Assembly: GCA_027451885.1 (NCBI GenBank)
Contig: DAIDHX010000311.1
Location: 62,001 to 126,000 of the forward strand
Direction of reading: 5' to 3'
Length of the DNA: 64,000 nt
Source: Planctomycetales bacterium
Lineage (GTDB): Bacteria > Planctomycetota > Planctomycetia > Isosphaerales > Isosphaeraceae
The translations under genes and the position numbers were made by a program. A model generated the notes under the pieces. It was not told where the DNA came from and did no database searches. It saw only the letters and a program-made list of their open reading frames with translations. Each line of letters begins with the position of its first letter. The stretch's first letter is position 1. This document shows, piece after piece, positions 11,474 to 18,053 of this stretch.

Positions 11474-12328
11474 ATGAGCGGCAAGCGACGAGCCTGGTTG
11501 GTGATGATTTTGGCAGTCTCTCTCGCCCTTGGGCCCGCCCGGCTGGCCTTCGCCTGGGGCCGCATGGCACACAGGGCCTCGGCCAAGCTCGCTGAGTCTC
11601 GGCTCACGCCCCGCACCCTCGAACGCGTTCGACTCCTCCTCGAGCCCGGCGAATCGCTCGCCGACGCCTCCACCTGGGCCGACGAAAACAGTCGCGAGAT
11701 CCCCGGCAGCGCCTCCTGGCATTACGTCAACGTGCCGATCACGCACGAGCGCTATAGCGCCCGCGATTGCCGCAAGAGCGGCTGCGTGGTCTCCAAGCTC
11801 GAGGAATTCCGCGCGATCCTCGCCGATCCACGCTCCAGCCGCGGGGATCAACGCGCTGCACTTCGGTTCGTGATCCACTTCGTGCAGGATCTGCACCAAC
11901 CGATGCACGTCGCCGACCATGACGACCGCGGCGGCAATGCGCTCCAGCTTCGCCTCGGACGGAACGACGCCACCAACCTGCACCAGGTCTGGGACTCGGG
12001 CCTCCTGAGGACCCAGTTCCGCCACGAGGACGACCTCGTTCGCGCGCTCAGGGAGCTCGCCGCCCAGCCGGAGGCCCGACGTTGGCACGGCCAGAACGTC
12101 GAGGACTGGGCGAATGAAAGCTTCACGCTTGGCCGCACGGCCTATCGCGACCCCGAGACAGGAGCCCTGCTCCGCAACGGCAGCGCGATCTCGCGGGCCT
12201 ATGAACGCGTCAACACGCCCCGCGCTGCCTTGCGCCTGGCACAGGCCGGCGTTCGCCTCGCCGACGTGCTCAACGAAGCGCTCGGCGACCGCCCAGGCCA
12301 GCAATCCCCCACCCGCGGATCACGGTAG
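11474..12328 (+). CDS. Secreted S1/P1-type nuclease
   Basis: This 284-residue exported nuclease belongs to the S1/P1 family (zinc-dependent enzymes that cut single-stranded nucleic acid and release 3'-nucleotides). A signal peptide is predicted for 1-27, cleaved in AFA-W so that Trp28 becomes the mature N-terminus. In this family the N-terminal Trp is itself a zinc ligand. Further ligand motifs are WGRMAH (His33), STWADE (Asp70), SWHYVN (His83), HFVQDLHQPMHVAD, and NLHQVWD. The full set of family zinc ligands seems present. It is divergent from the SEC-C gene, with 192 bases between the starts. It likely degrades extracellular or periplasmic DNA/RNA for nutrients. Confidence 0.93.
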   Translation: MSGKRRAWLVMILAVSLALGPARLAFAWGRMAHRASAKLAESRLTPRTLERVRLLLEPGESLADASTWADENSREIPGSASWHYVNVPITHERYSARDCRKSGCVVSKLEEFRAILADPRSSRGDQRAALRFVIHFVQDLHQPMHVADHDDRGGNALQLRLGRNDATNLHQVWDSGLLRTQFRHEDDLVRALRELAAQPEARRWHGQNVEDWANESFTLGRTAYRDPETGALLRNGSAISRAYERVNTPRAALRLAQAGVRLADVLNEALGDRPGQQSPTRGSR

Positions 12329-12711: not shown

Positions 12712-13571
12712 CTAGGCGCTGTTTGAAAACACCAGTCTGAGGGCGCGCTTGATCATAGCTAACTTTATCATGGCCAAGAAGTTGATCGCCAACTTCTCGA
12801 ATCGGGTTCCGATTCGTCGACACTCCTTCAGCCAACCGATGCACTGCTCGACGATGCTCCGTCGCTTGTACGTGTCCTTGTCGAACTTCACCTCAGGATC
12901 ATGGCGGGCCTTCTCGTTGTCCTTGTGCGGAATGATCGGTTCGATGCCGCGATCCTTCAAGAACCCGCGGATGGTCTCGCTGCTATAACCTTTGTCCCCC
13001 GCCAACCGCTTGGGACGACTCTTCGGCCTACCCCGCTTCTGCTTGATGTGCACCTTTTTGAGAATCGGTTCCAGACGCTTCGAATCATGCACCTGGCCCG
13101 CCGTTACTTCGGCTTCGAGCGGCGTGCCGTTGCCTTCGACAAGGAGGTGGATTTTCGTGCCAAAACCGCCTCGCGAGCGGCCCAAGCCGTGGTCCGAGGG
13201 TTCCTCGGGGTGAGAGACGACACCTTTTTTGATGCGCCGGCTGCGGACCGAGTTCCCCGCACCGACGTGCCGTCGATGCACCACAAATCCCAGTCGATTT
13301 TCCCTTGTTGATCCAGTCGCAAATGCAAGGCGTCGATGATCGAATCGAGGAGTCCGTCGGCTCGCCACTTGCGGAAACAGTCGTACACAGTCTCCCAGGG
13401 CCCGAACCGTTCCGGCAGGTCGCGCCACTGAGTGCCTGTTGAGAGTATCCACAGGATGCCGTTGAGCATCTGCCGCCGATCCCGAGGGGGCCGACCTGTT
13501 TTGGCTTCTGATTTTGGAATCAATGGATCGAGAACCGTCCATTCTTCCTCGCTGACTTCGTGCCGCTTCAT
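12712..13571 (-). CDS. IS5/IS427-type DDE transposase made by -1 frameshift (orfA+orfB)
   Basis: orfA starts at the ATG at 13571, preceded by AAGGAA, and carries the N-terminal domain (EEEWTVLDPLIP, GRPPRDRRQMLNGILW) and the first catalytic Asp in WCIDGTSVRG. After the slippery site at 13224-13230, orfB continues in the -1 frame with the second Asp in LAGDKGYSS and the Glu in the motif Y-K-R-R-S-I-V-E, followed by the Lys of the Y-(2)-R-(3)-E-(6)-K signature. The shifted product is 286 residues, the usual size. The stop codon TAG is formed by the last IS bases plus the flanking TA, so it is supplied by the target site. orfA alone runs on to 13104 with no known function. Confidence 0.88.
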
Positions 13572-13631
13572 GTACGGAGTTCCTTGTCCGCACGCAGTTT
13601 ACCAGTTAGCGTCAAGTTCTAAAACAGGGCC
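12715..13631 (-). mobile_element. IS5-family (IS427-like) insertion sequence, 917 bp
   Basis: The element starts with GGCGCTGTTTGAAAAC at 12715 and ends with the inverted copy GGCCCTGTTTTAGAAC (read from 13631 back), 13 of 16 bases matching. A TA dinucleotide lies on each side (12713-12714 and 13632-13633), fitting a TA target duplication. It carries a two-frame transposase on the minus strand that needs a frameshift, the arrangement known from the IS427 subgroup. Both ends and the transposase appear intact, so it may still be active. It interrupts a decayed gene. Confidence 0.9.
13224..13230 (-). promoter_or_regulatory. Slippery heptamer A AAA AAG for -1 frameshift
   Basis: On the minus strand the bases read A-AAA-AAG in the orfA phase (TCA AAA AAG). 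Slipping back one base gives AAA AAA GGT GTC, which joins exactly to the orfB frame and yields conserved sequence (IKKGVVSHPEE). This is a classic bacterial -1 frameshift heptamer. Confidence 0.85.
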
Positions 13632-13847: not shown

Positions 13848-14267
13848 TCATTGACGCCAATTAACCAAGATCAGCGAGTACCCGAGTTGCTGGATACGCT
13901 GATAATGAGAGGTGTTGCCGGTCACGAGTTCCAATCCCTGATCGATCGCGACCGCGGCTATTATTGGGTCGGCTCGGCCAATGGGCTGGCCAACACGTTC
14001 GAGGTCGCCGGTAATGCGTCCGGCAAGATCAGCGATCGCCGTATCCAGGGGAAAGACCTCTTCCGAGGCGATCGATGCTATGAACGTATTAAGTCGCTGA
14101 AACTGCTGAGCCTTCTGGTACCCACGCACGATCTCAAATACGGTGATCGTGGATAATGAATAATGACCGAAGGCCCGTCGGTAGGTCTTCGCGTTAGCAG
14201 CGACAGTCGAATTGCTGCCCTTGCGGATCTCAGATAGGGTATCCGTGTCGAGTAGTGCTTTATTCAC
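13848..14267 (-). CDS. vapC: VapC-type PIN-domain ribonuclease toxin
   Basis: This 139-residue PIN-domain protein is the probable toxin of a type II toxin-antitoxin pair. Acidic metal ligands are visible in LLDTDTLSEI near the N-terminus, in TVFEIVRGY, and in GRADPIIAAVAI and LVTGNTSHYQRI near the C-terminus, the order typical of VapC. PIN toxins cut tRNA or rRNA in an Mg-dependent way. Its start overlaps the end of the upstream antitoxin gene by 8 bases, the common coupled arrangement that keeps antitoxin in excess. It is less GC-rich than the core genes, which fits transfer with the island. Confidence 0.9.
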   Translation of the reverse strand: MNKALLDTDTLSEIRKGSNSTVAANAKTYRRAFGHYSLSTITVFEIVRGYQKAQQFQRLNTFIASIASEEVFPLDTAIADLAGRITGDLERVGQPIGRADPIIAAVAIDQGLELVTGNTSHYQRIQQLGYSLILVNWRQ

Positions 14268-14526
14268 CGCTGGTTAACCGCCAGGGCTGTTGCTCGCGGT
14301 TCCGCATCGCGTCTTCGACGATTTGATCCATTAATTCGGCATGGTCGCTCGCCGAGCCAAGCAGCGGGTCGGGTGAGGGGGGAATGGTCGGTTGGCGGCG
14401 TTCTTGACGGTGGCGTTGAAACGCCCGCCACGCTTCGGCAAGTGCGGCGTCAACGGAGGCGAATCGGCCGTTCTGGACCTGTGCGAGAATCTCTCGTTCC
14501 ACGTCGTTAGGCAAATGTATCGTCAT
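14260..14526 (-). CDS. Probable antitoxin of the vapC pair (ribbon-helix-helix-like)
   Basis: This 88-residue protein has an N-terminal MTIHLPNDVEREI followed by VQNGRFASVDAALAEAW, the pattern of a ribbon-helix-helix antitoxin (CopG/ParD-like) in which the first strand contacts operator DNA. The charged C-terminal tail would wrap the toxin. The ATG at 14526 is chosen because AAGGAGT lies just upstream; a longer frame to 14640 would cover the promoter. It is read first in the vapBC-like operon, with the promoter at 14548-14576. Autoregulation by the RHH domain is expected from the family but no operator repeat is obvious. Confidence 0.82.
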   Translation of the reverse strand: MTIHLPNDVEREILAQVQNGRFASVDAALAEAWRAFQRHRQERRQPTIPPSPDPLLGSASDHAELMDQIVEDAMRNREQQPWRLTSGE

Positions 14527-14576: not shown

Positions 14577-14616
14577 GCCTTGCAAATCTGCCGACGAGAT
14601 GCCTTAAGACTTTGAT

Positions 14617-14622
14617 TATAAT
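14617..14622 (+). promoter_or_regulatory. Possible -10 box for the HEPN gene
   Basis: A perfect TATAAT with TG nearby upstream (TGAT before the box) lies 95 bases ahead of the GTG start of the HEPN gene and points away from the toxin-antitoxin promoter. No -35 hexamer is recognisable, so this is weak evidence. Confidence 0.3.
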
Positions 14623-14717
14623 AGATTTCGGGCACGGCAATGAAGCGACAACAGACCGGACAATGCGACGCTGCCAATTTTCGGCACAGCTCGCCAGAAT
14701 GCTTGGGAGACCCCGCT

Positions 14718-15383
14718 GTGAACGATGTCGACCAGTTATTTTTGAAGTGGCAGGGATGGATCAAGAACGAGCTATCACGGGAATTCAGTCGCCTGTTACG
14801 AGATCAGCGTATATTCAATGCGTTCCTGGAGAGCTTGAATCCATACGCTGGGCAGCAAGCCGGATCGGAAATCGCCGAATGGATGGGCCTAAACTACTTT
14901 ATTTCCTCGTGCGTGGCGATTCGGCGGCTCGATGATAGGGACAAGCGGACAGTTTCTTTGCGTGTGCTCTTAATAGACCTGCAATCGCATGCGGATATAA
15001 TAACCGAAGCCCAGTTGGCTGCTCATAACTCGATGTTTCGAGTAATGCCGGACCAAAAACAACTTTCCGCAAGTGAAGTCGTCGACCTGCTCAAAAAAGA
15101 AATCGAACTGCTGGATCGATTTGGTCATAAAGTAAAACAATATGTGGACAAATTTGTTGCCCATTCTGACGCCACAAACAGTATCGAGATGATTCCAGAT
15201 ACGTCTGTTCTCGACAAGGCGCTCTTTAGTTTTCATGCGATATTTCGTAAATATGCGTTTCTGATTGCCGGGATTCCATGCGATTTCAAGAATCCGAATC
15301 CAGTTGACCTCATCGGTGCACCGGGCGATGACTATAGGAAGCGATTGACACGGCTGTGGACGGTAAGCCGCGATGACGAATGA
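14718..15383 (+). CDS. AbiU2-like HEPN-domain protein
   Basis: This 221-residue all-helical protein resembles the AbiU2-type HEPN family of abortive-infection proteins: the stretch YFISSCVAIRRLDDRDK, a central helix SLRVLLIDLQ and the final KQYVDKFVAHSD. In active HEPN ribonucleases an R-x4-6-H motif is near the end. Here the His is present in FVAHSD, but the position of the Arg is occupied by other residues, so nuclease activity is uncertain. The GTG at 14718 is preferred because GGGAG precedes it; an ATG at 14640 is possible. The gene is GC-poorer than the core, and is followed 73 bases later by a PD-(D/E)XK gene in the same direction, suggesting a two-gene unit. The family call is by pattern only. 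Confidence 0.62.
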   Translation: MNDVDQLFLKWQGWIKNELSREFSRLLRDQRIFNAFLESLNPYAGQQAGSEIAEWMGLNYFISSCVAIRRLDDRDKRTVSLRVLLIDLQSHADIITEAQLAAHNSMFRVMPDQKQLSASEVVDLLKKEIELLDRFGHKVKQYVDKFVAHSDATNSIEMIPDTSVLDKALFSFHAIFRKYAFLIAGIPCDFKNPNPVDLIGAPGDDYRKRLTRLWTVSRDDE

Positions 15384-15456
15384 CACTGACTAGCCGACGG
15401 TGACATTGCTGGGCGAGGTTTGCTCTGTTACCGCTTGTTAAGACCGAGAATCGCTA

Positions 15457-16851
15457 ATGTCGAAAACGCGTAAAAAGGTCCCCAAGCCGACTAGGCGGGA
15501 GACCTCAGCGGGCCGCACAGCAAACAATGTTCCGGCCGGTAGATCGACCATAGTGTCGATGCCGACTCCCCTGCTAAATGAGGAGAGATTCCATCGTGAC
15601 GTCGTGCCCACGTTCGAGAAGGCACGCGATGAAATCGCCAAAATCGTTGCTAAAGACCAGCGGCTCGCCACAAAGTTGGCCAGTATGCAGCTAGTCATCC
15701 TCGATAACCGGAAAACCGAAAACGTGATGGTCTTCTGGCTAACCGATACGTACAAAAAAAGCTGCTACCTGTATGACCAGCATCAAGGCATGCGGGGCAT
15801 AAGTGGTTATAGCTCGTCGGAAATTAACATGGCTTTGTGTGATCGTTCCCACGTGCTCGATGGATTACGATCAGTGTTTCTAAAAGAGTTGCTGTCGCGG
15901 GCGAAGGCCGAGGATTTGGCGGGATATGTGAAGACATTTCTCCTGTCGAATTACAGGGAAGTCGAGGAACGGCATACTGACAAGTATTATCTATTACGCT
16001 TCGTTAACATTGACTTCGGCATCGAAGGCTGGTTCGCCGTTCTGGCATCTCGTAGAAACGTCATTATACCGATCGCTGCAGAGCTCGACGCGGCGGATAT
16101 TCCGGACGGGGGCGGAGACACCCGGAATGTGGTATTTACAACACGCGAGGATGTGTCGAAATACACGGGATTCGACGCCGTCTTAGACTATTGGGAAGTC
16201 TTCTTTCATTTCAGCATGTTTAAGTTTACTGACGCCGTGCCGTTCTATCAGAAACTTGCTCGCCTCCCGGCATCGGACCTGTATAAGGCTGTGGCGTATC
16301 TTCGGACGACGGGAACGACGGAGATCTTTGATTTAAAGCAAGAATTGGCAACGGTCCCTGTTTCACAAGGTAAGGATTTCGAGCGATGCATTGAACAAGT
16401 GTTAGAAACATGCTTGGGGCCAAGCTACAACATGTTCCATCTTTCAAAACAGGTCGCCAATCGCGGATCGATAACGATCAGAGACTTTATCATCACCAAT
16501 AACGGGAGCACGCACTCGTTCCTGCAGAGACTCGAGACACGGGGGGTCGAACTGCTTCTGGTCGAGGCAAAGAATTACGAGAAACCGCTAACGCCTACCG
16601 CGATTGCAAGATTTCGGACGTATCTGGAAGAGAACCGGGCATTCGGGAATGTTGGTATAATCCTGTGTAAGAAAGGCATTTCAAGAAACTGTTCCGAGGC
16701 ACTTTTCAGGGCAAGCATCGCAACACAAAACCAAATTATTCTGGTTCTCAACGAATCGGATATTTTTGAGATGCTCGACAAGATTGAAGATGGCGGCGAA
16801 GGAGCCGATATTATTCGCGATAAATACTATAAACTGATGATGGAAGCCTGA
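15457..16851 (+). CDS. Protein with C-terminal PD-(D/E)XK nuclease-like domain
   Basis: This 464-residue protein has an unrecognised N-terminal 300 residues (mixed alpha/beta, no signal or membrane segments). From about 305 it has a restriction-endonuclease-like fold: GKDFERCIEQVLE (a helix with the first Glu), IRDFII (Asp at about 342), then LLLVEAKNY with E-x-K at about 369-371. This E...D...ExK pattern is the PD-(D/E)XK core as in Mrr and Holliday-junction-like nucleases. The rest, FRTYLEENRAFGNVGIILCKKG, fits the following strand and helix. It lies 73 bases after the HEPN gene. Its GC content and codon use differ from the core, which points to transfer. A function in phage or plasmid defence is inferred from domain type and neighbours, not shown. 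Confidence 0.65.
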   Translation: MSKTRKKVPKPTRRETSAGRTANNVPAGRSTIVSMPTPLLNEERFHRDVVPTFEKARDEIAKIVAKDQRLATKLASMQLVILDNRKTENVMVFWLTDTYKKSCYLYDQHQGMRGISGYSSSEINMALCDRSHVLDGLRSVFLKELLSRAKAEDLAGYVKTFLLSNYREVEERHTDKYYLLRFVNIDFGIEGWFAVLASRRNVIIPIAAELDAADIPDGGGDTRNVVFTTREDVSKYTGFDAVLDYWEVFFHFSMFKFTDAVPFYQKLARLPASDLYKAVAYLRTTGTTEIFDLKQELATVPVSQGKDFERCIEQVLETCLGPSYNMFHLSKQVANRGSITIRDFIITNNGSTHSFLQRLETRGVELLLVEAKNYEKPLTPTAIARFRTYLEENRAFGNVGIILCKKGISRNCSEALFRASIATQNQIILVLNESDIFEMLDKIEDGGEGADIIRDKYYKLMMEA

Positions 16852-16866
16852 GCCCCGGGGGAATGA

Positions 16867-16920
16867 CCACGCCTGTCCTACATATATGAGGCGTGGGTGC
16901 CGCGGGAAGACCCAGGCACC
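16867..16920. terminator. Two consecutive GC-rich hairpins after the nuclease-like gene
   Basis: CCACGCCT (16867-16874) pairs perfectly with AGGCGTGG (16889-16896). GGTGCC (16896-16901) pairs with GGCACC (16915-16920). The first is 16 bases after the stop codon of the nuclease-like gene, a place suited to transcript end formation. No T tract follows, so a rho-independent function is not certain. Confidence 0.45.
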
Positions 16921-17430
16921 GGGCGGAGTCACCGGGCGTCATGATTAGGATGTTCGCGAGGACCCGCAATCCTTGCAGAGTCAAACCCCATCGAGCAGGA
17001 ATTGGGAGATTCTTGATTCGAGCCGCGCCAACGCGCGTTAGATTCAGGATGAGAAGAACCTCGAACGGCGTCTGAGCCTTTCGTCCTCCACCCTTCACGA
17101 CTCACGCAAAGCACCTCGGCGATTCCCCAGTCGATCAACCCGAAAAGCCAGATGCGGGGCGGGTCTGAGCACCTGGCCGGCAGTTCGTGTTCGTTTTGTC
17201 ACCGGCTGGGCGCCGGCGTTGAGGGGCGGACCTGGCACGAATGCACGCGCGAGCGGACGCGTCGTGGTCGTGTCGGAGGCGCGGACGAGGGGGTTGTTTC
17301 GCGCCAGAAACCGAACCCAATCGCGTCAGAAAGTGAAGCCAGAGCGTGTCAGAAAATGAGGCCACAACCGCTGCGCAGAATTGAGCCGAGGCTCTCCGTA
17401 ATATAAAGCCAGCAAAGGAGAAACGTCGAC

Positions 17431-17502
17431 TGCGAACCGAACCCATTGCGCCCGTGCGAACCGAACCCATTGCGCCCGCGCGGACCGAACCCAACGCGCG
17501 GA
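17431..17502. repeat. First 24-bp tandem array (3 units)
   Basis: Units start at 17431, 17455 and 17479. The first two are identical 24-mers of the form tgcgaaccgaacccattg plus cgcccg; the third diverges. Eight codons per unit explains why frames remain open. Confidence 0.9.
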
Positions 17503-17862
17503 AAAATCGAGTCCGGCTGGGCGCAGGCGATGAGGGGCGGACCTGGCACGAATGCACGCACTTGCTCGCGCGGCGTGCTCGTATCGGAGGCGCGGTCGAG
17601 GGTGTCGTTTCGCGCCGACGAAGCGGCGTTGAGGGGCGGACCGGGCACGAATGCACGCACTTGCTCGCGCGGCGTGCTCGTATCGGATGCGCGGTCGAGG
17701 GTGTTGTTTCGCACCGACGAAGGGAATCCAATCGCGCCAGAAATCGAGCCCGGTCGCGCCAGAAATCGAGCCCAGGCGTGTCAGAAAATGAGGCCACAAC
17801 CGCTGCGCAGAATTGAGCCAGGGAGCTCCGTAATATGAAGCCAGTAAAGGAGAACCGTCGAC

Positions 17863-18053
17863 TGCGAACCGAACCCATTGTGCCCGTGCGAACCGAACCC
17901 ATTGCGCCCGTGCGAACCGAACCCATTGTGCCTGCGCGGACCGAAGCCATCTCGCGGAAAAAGCGAAGCCAGCGGCCCTGCACGAATCGAAGCCAGTGGC
18001 CCTGCGCGGAGCGAAGCCAACGGCCCTGCGCGGAGCGAAGCCAGCGGCCCGGC
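17863..18053. repeat. Second 24-bp tandem array (about 8 units, diverging)
   Basis: Units start at 17863, 17887, 17911 and 17935 and keep the aaccgaacccattg core in the first three. Units from about 17958 change to a gcgaagccagcggccctg form with 21-25 base spacing. Spacing near two helical turns is kept throughout. Confidence 0.85.

Follow-up and report, generated by a model that had tools for sequence, protein, structure and literature searches.

Two neighbouring genes in a low-GC block raise two questions: whether a HEPN protein and a PD-(D/E)XK nuclease-like protein encoded side by side act together in defence, and whether the HEPN protein, which has lost the arginine of the Rx4-6H motif, is still an enzyme. 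The window, the whole stretch of 64,000 nucleotides analysed here, is part of one contig (C311) in a genome assembly of 316 contigs. Our verdict is that genes 1 and 2 are horizontally acquired genes for defence-type nucleases; a joint function is possible, and a defence pair is plausible. Of all the claims made here, the one with independent evolutionary support is that the HEPN arginine has relocated; it is also more testable than the defence pair.

Table 1. Features of the low-GC block and of the two nuclease genes, in window coordinates.
Feature	Coordinates	Strand	Remarks
IS5-type transposase	12712..13593	-	left part of the low-GC block
VapC/PIN toxin gene	13848..14267	-	
ParD-like antitoxin gene	14260..14523	-	start inferred; TIGR02606, weak match
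Gene 1, HEPN_AbiU2-like protein, 221 aa	14718..15383	+	PF18734; all-helical model, pLDDT 78
Arg69-Arg70 of gene 1	14922..14927	+	at the C-terminus of predicted helix 2; Arg69 proposed as relocated active-site arginine
Rx4-6H remnant of gene 1, V143-D-K-F-V-A-H149	15144..15164	+	Val in place of Arg
Intergenic gap between genes 1 and 2	15384..15456		73 bp
Gene 2, 464 aa	15457..16851	+	N-terminal part without known family, then PD-(D/E)XK nuclease module
Residues 42-268 of gene 2	15580..16260	+	alpha/beta, no family assigned; low model confidence (mostly pLDDT <60)
Residues 305-464 of gene 2	16369..16848	+	Mrr-like PD-(D/E)XK module common to the PDC-M36A C-terminus
E370-A-K372 of gene 2	16564..16572	+	ExK of the catalytic motif

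Locus layout and origin: The preliminary description had placed two co-directional genes 73 bp apart between a toxin-antitoxin pair on the left and a repeat region on the right, with an insertion sequence close by, and all of this is correct. Gene 1 begins with GTG and has a Shine-Dalgarno-like GGGAG 8 nt upstream, while its longest open frame extends in the same frame to an ATG at 14640, a longer alternative start. A sequence scan found no terminator-like site in the gap between the two genes, which are probably co-transcribed from upstream of gene 1. Direct repeats of ~100 and ~300 bp, 82-95% identical, lie to the right of gene 2 at 17202-17925, a region with an AT skew of about +0.2.

Three lines of evidence indicate that the block is foreign and, at the level of the genus, a recent arrival. 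First, as had been noted from the letters alone, the pair is less GC-rich than the flanking core: GC is 0.476 in gene 1 and 0.495 in gene 2 against 0.63 in the window. GC3 is 0.52 in gene 1 and 0.58 in gene 2, whereas the SEC-C, S1/P1-nuclease and sulfatase core genes on the flanks have ~0.82. The adjoining vapC, parD-like and transposase genes have GC3 values of 0.60-0.64. Second, the DNA alignment with two same-genus genomes runs to window position 12292 and ends there. Third, gene 1 was not found in two genomes of the genus or in 42 others of the family, nor was gene 2 found in the remaining 178 genomes of the class sample. Comparing the right flank with sister genomes yielded no border for the insertion, as the DUF418 gene has matches of only 36-37% in them. 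The block carrying genes 1 and 2 is horizontally acquired and accessory, a mosaic of an insertion sequence, toxin-antitoxin genes and the two nuclease genes. A surrounding defence island was considered and rejected: a PADLOC scan of the rest of the window detected no defence genes of other kinds around the block, and its matches there are mostly to protein-kinase models, in keeping with three Pkinase proteins.

Gene 1 and its missing arginine: Whether a HEPN protein counts as active or as dead is usually decided by its Rx4-6H motif, and this motif is absent throughout the gene 1 protein. The protein nevertheless scores above the Pfam cut-off for HEPN_AbiU2 (PF18734; 30.8 versus 26.8 bits), and its predicted model has no significant match in the PDB. 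Both the assignment to AbiU2-like HEPNs and the loss of the usual arginine before the final histidine had been recognised in the preliminary description. The presumed catalytic histidine, H149, is kept, and the position after the missing arginine still holds a polar residue.

The pattern that may explain this loss was first noticed in an alignment of 16 AbiU2-like HEPNs and was then checked on sequences fetched later. In the initial set, helix 2 ends in two arginines, corresponding to R69-R70 of the gene 1 protein, wherever the motif arginine is missing, and the other HEPNs have at most one there. L074-L079, fetched after the rule had been seen, all fit it, including L074, which lies within the arginine-less clade and has the motif arginine together with a serine at column 69. 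Three relatives of the lone arginine-less outlier, L020, also fit (L080-L082). Across the 27 proteins, every one of the 11 that are devoid of the motif arginine has Arg69, as against 0 of the 16 others (Fisher p 7.7e-8, a figure that ignores relatedness), and among well-filled columns only 69 and 143 predict the arginine state perfectly. A maximum-likelihood tree computed without columns 69 and 142-144 requires three state changes, and its starred branches by themselves force three. Columns 69 and 143 were swapped jointly at least three times.

This covariation suggests that the active-site arginine has apparently moved from Rx4-6H to R69 in helix 2, which accounts for the odd absence that the preliminary description had remarked upon. 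With the arginine apparently relocated, the gene 1 protein is probably still an RNase. More broadly, we think it on balance probable that a clade of AbiU2-like HEPNs including gene 1 has replaced the Rx4-6H arginine with one in helix 2, in at least three joint exchanges, and that HEPNs called inactive for want of Rx4-6H may be active. If so, plasmid- and chromosome-borne HEPNs that are read as inactive today become candidate RNases. The preliminary description had suggested that the HEPN is perhaps a sensor or regulator. That a catalytically dead HEPN senses for the nuclease or regulates it, a reading for which the missing arginine speaks, we consider improbable. The loss recurs in a HEPN clade found in other contexts, where it is matched one for one by an arginine at column 69; H149 is retained in such proteins, as is usually a polar residue behind the site of the lost arginine. 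A parallel comes from the Parep1/8 family, in which H is present and R absent, as in the gene 1 protein, and for which other basic residues were proposed to substitute for R (Anantharaman et al. 2013, PMC3710099, section 6). Parep1/8 is a different HEPN family from AbiU2, however, and that section reports no site-for-site exchange; an example of the proposed replacement that holds site for site is given by the AbiU2 data. Lactococcal abiU2 by itself was not among the growth inhibitors in one E. coli screen (PMC3985639), so a toxic readout may require a trigger.

Gene 2 nuclease module: The C-terminal part of gene 2 is, by sequence, the PD-(D/E)XK module of the candidate defence family PDC-M36A. 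The PADLOC model of that family (PDLC04597) aligns through its C-terminal part, profile 302-449, with residues 306-458 (E 2.8e-9), and the module also matches phrog_31260, a phage protein family without assigned function (E 9.4e-9). The catalytic residues are E309, D343, E370 and K372. D343, E370 and K372, present in every relative, are conserved along with N373 and Y374 in distant relatives fetched from other genomes, and E309 is present also in the two closest relatives. These matches and conserved residues uphold the earlier assignment to PD-(D/E)XK nuclease-like proteins; the E...D...ExK core described then is real, but the positions given for its last two residues, E369 and K371, were off by one. 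Against Pfam Mrr_cat (PF04471) the protein stays under the cut-off (13.2 versus 21 bits). The predicted model is confident chiefly in its C-terminal half. Foldseek returned restriction and nicking endonucleases among its top matches with probabilities of 0.98-1.00, only one of them at E <0.001; the best match in the viral library is annotated 'Restriction endonuclease' (E 1.5e-4), and the PDB matches include the nicking endonuclease Nt.BspD6I (probability 0.98).

Profile searches with gene 2 reached only the C-terminal module in its relatives. The same module has other fusion partners elsewhere: the PDC-M36A N-terminal domain in L003, L043 and L072, a P-loop ATPase-like region in L039, and other REase-like domains in L048 and L049. 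It is a mobile building block. In translations, PDC-M36A-type genes are seen within type I R-M loci, by hsdS/hsdM-like genes (L035:4123-9394, L033:3-1819). In gene 2, the module that this candidate defence family from type I R-M loci also has is combined with an uncharacterised N-terminal domain.

Gene 2 N-terminal part: The roughly 300 unrecognised residues that had been described in front of the nuclease core are indeed so, residues 1-293 having no Pfam family match at E<=1. The only full-length relative of gene 2 that tblastn recovered from phages, plasmids, viral contigs, genome contigs and 294 phylum and 179 class genomes was gene 2 itself. PDC-M36 as the entire system was rejected: the N-termini of gene 2 and PDC-M36A give no convincing alignment, the match being limited to residues 306-458, and none of the PDC-M36 models recognised gene 1. 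A rewired RnlA/RNase LS, in which the gene 2 N-terminus would match RnlA in forming a tandem TBP-like region and the HEPN domain would sit in a separate gene, we regard as very improbable. RnlA structures do recur among the Foldseek matches of the model (E 0.03-0.2), and a viral 'RNaseLS-like' protein is matched with a probability of 0.85. The model, however, has low confidence in the matching region (pLDDT ~35-64), and hhalign with an RnlA alignment gave a probability of 0.2%, within the range of shuffled controls. Homology to RnlA, hinted at by Foldseek and left without support by the profile comparison, was accordingly rejected.

The pair as a possible system: Our tentative reading, to which we give somewhat less than an even chance, is that the acquired block carries two nuclease genes, for an AbiU2-family HEPN RNase and an Mrr-like endonuclease, that act together in defence. 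In such a scheme the N-terminal part of gene 2 (~290 residues) would sense or bind a target, gene 2 would most likely identify and cleave invading DNA, and the gene 1 HEPN would cleave RNA using R69 and H149 as a growth-arresting second line. What the data show directly is the arrangement of the genes, their foreign composition, the two domain types at sequence level and the covariation of the arginines; joint transcription, both activities and their targets, any cooperation and a part in defence are inferences from these. The preliminary description proposed one undescribed or variant two-gene system, which the neighbour comparison does not support. Relatives of gene 1 and gene 2 were never found adjacent outside the window, in either direction, in a test limited to the C-terminal module on the gene 2 side; since the searched data held no full-length gene 2 homologue, this non-recurrence is weak evidence against joint function. 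Two unrelated cargo genes, an orphan AbiU2-like HEPN and a solo PD-(D/E)XK fusion nuclease lying side by side with no joint function, are a realistic possibility, though one that we would not call probable. It fits the mosaic make-up of the block and the neighbour counts, in which no AbiU2-like HEPN adjoins the relatives of the nuclease module and no nuclease relative occurs at the 24 HEPN loci compared with the window (25 loci with it). The shared strand, the short gap and the similar composition of genes 1 and 2 speak against it, as does the recurrence of HEPN and PD-(D/E)XK neighbours in other forms at L017, L074 and L072.

At two of the 24 other loci, the AbiU2-like HEPN has an adjacent PD-(D/E)XK gene over the Pfam cut-off: an HSDR_N gene on the same strand at a distance of 32 bp (L017) and a convergent Mrr_cat gene at 15 bp (L074). 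Neither nuclease matches the profiles of the gene 2 module. The HEPN and PD-(D/E)XK combination recurs loosely, in agreement with the published survey of HEPN genes in R-M operons (PMC3710099), and this specific pair does not. At L072 (1605-3948), a gap of 19 bp separates a PDC-M36A gene from the gene behind it, which encodes 296 aa with RDTLAH in the C-terminal part; the product of this second gene looks HEPN-like by eye and has no Pfam or PADLOC match, and an integrase-like gene lies further downstream.

AbiU2-like HEPNs were also noted at three further loci. L041 (2-2040) has three HEPN-type genes in a row: an AbiU2-like gene, one for a PF05168 HEPN (E 9.9e-8), and one that contains RDKQFAH and matches AbiU2 weakly. 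On Pseudomonas aeruginosa plasmids (L075:2654-5847), an arginine-less AbiU2-like HEPN belongs to a set of three closely spaced genes, of which the other two encode an AAA ATPase and an unknown protein of 365 aa. On a Bradyrhizobium plasmid (L080:1-3223), a PrlF/YhaV toxin-antitoxin pair immediately precedes an AbiU2-like HEPN and an N-6 DNA methylase lies close by, a context that resembles the toxin-antitoxin plus HEPN arrangement of the window.

Comparison with known systems: The gene 1 protein resembles the AbiU2 HEPN family (PF18734; Lactococcus AbiU) in its score over the cut-off, its all-helical model, its final histidine and the R/D of helix 2. It departs from the family in having an arginine at column 69 in place of that of Rx4-6H; a survey from 2013 counts the latter among the conserved residues of AbiU2 (PMC3710099). 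Gene 2 matched no AbiU model in PADLOC. With PDC-M36A it shares the C-terminal nuclease module; the N-terminal domain of that family (profile ~8-250) is missing from gene 2, whose residues 1-293 differ. Gene 2 is like Mrr-type restriction endonucleases (PF04471) in its E, D and ExK residues, their order and, tentatively, the predicted fold, and unlike them in falling below the cut-off, in being joined to an unassigned N-terminal part and in having no methylase identified nearby. The combination of an AbiU2-like HEPN without Rx4-6H and a PDC-M36A-type module was found neither described nor in the other genomes searched. In its general form the arrangement is familiar: HEPN families including AbiU2 are reported in R-M operons and as REase fusions, so that a HEPN RNase beside a restriction-type nuclease has already been described (PMC3710099).
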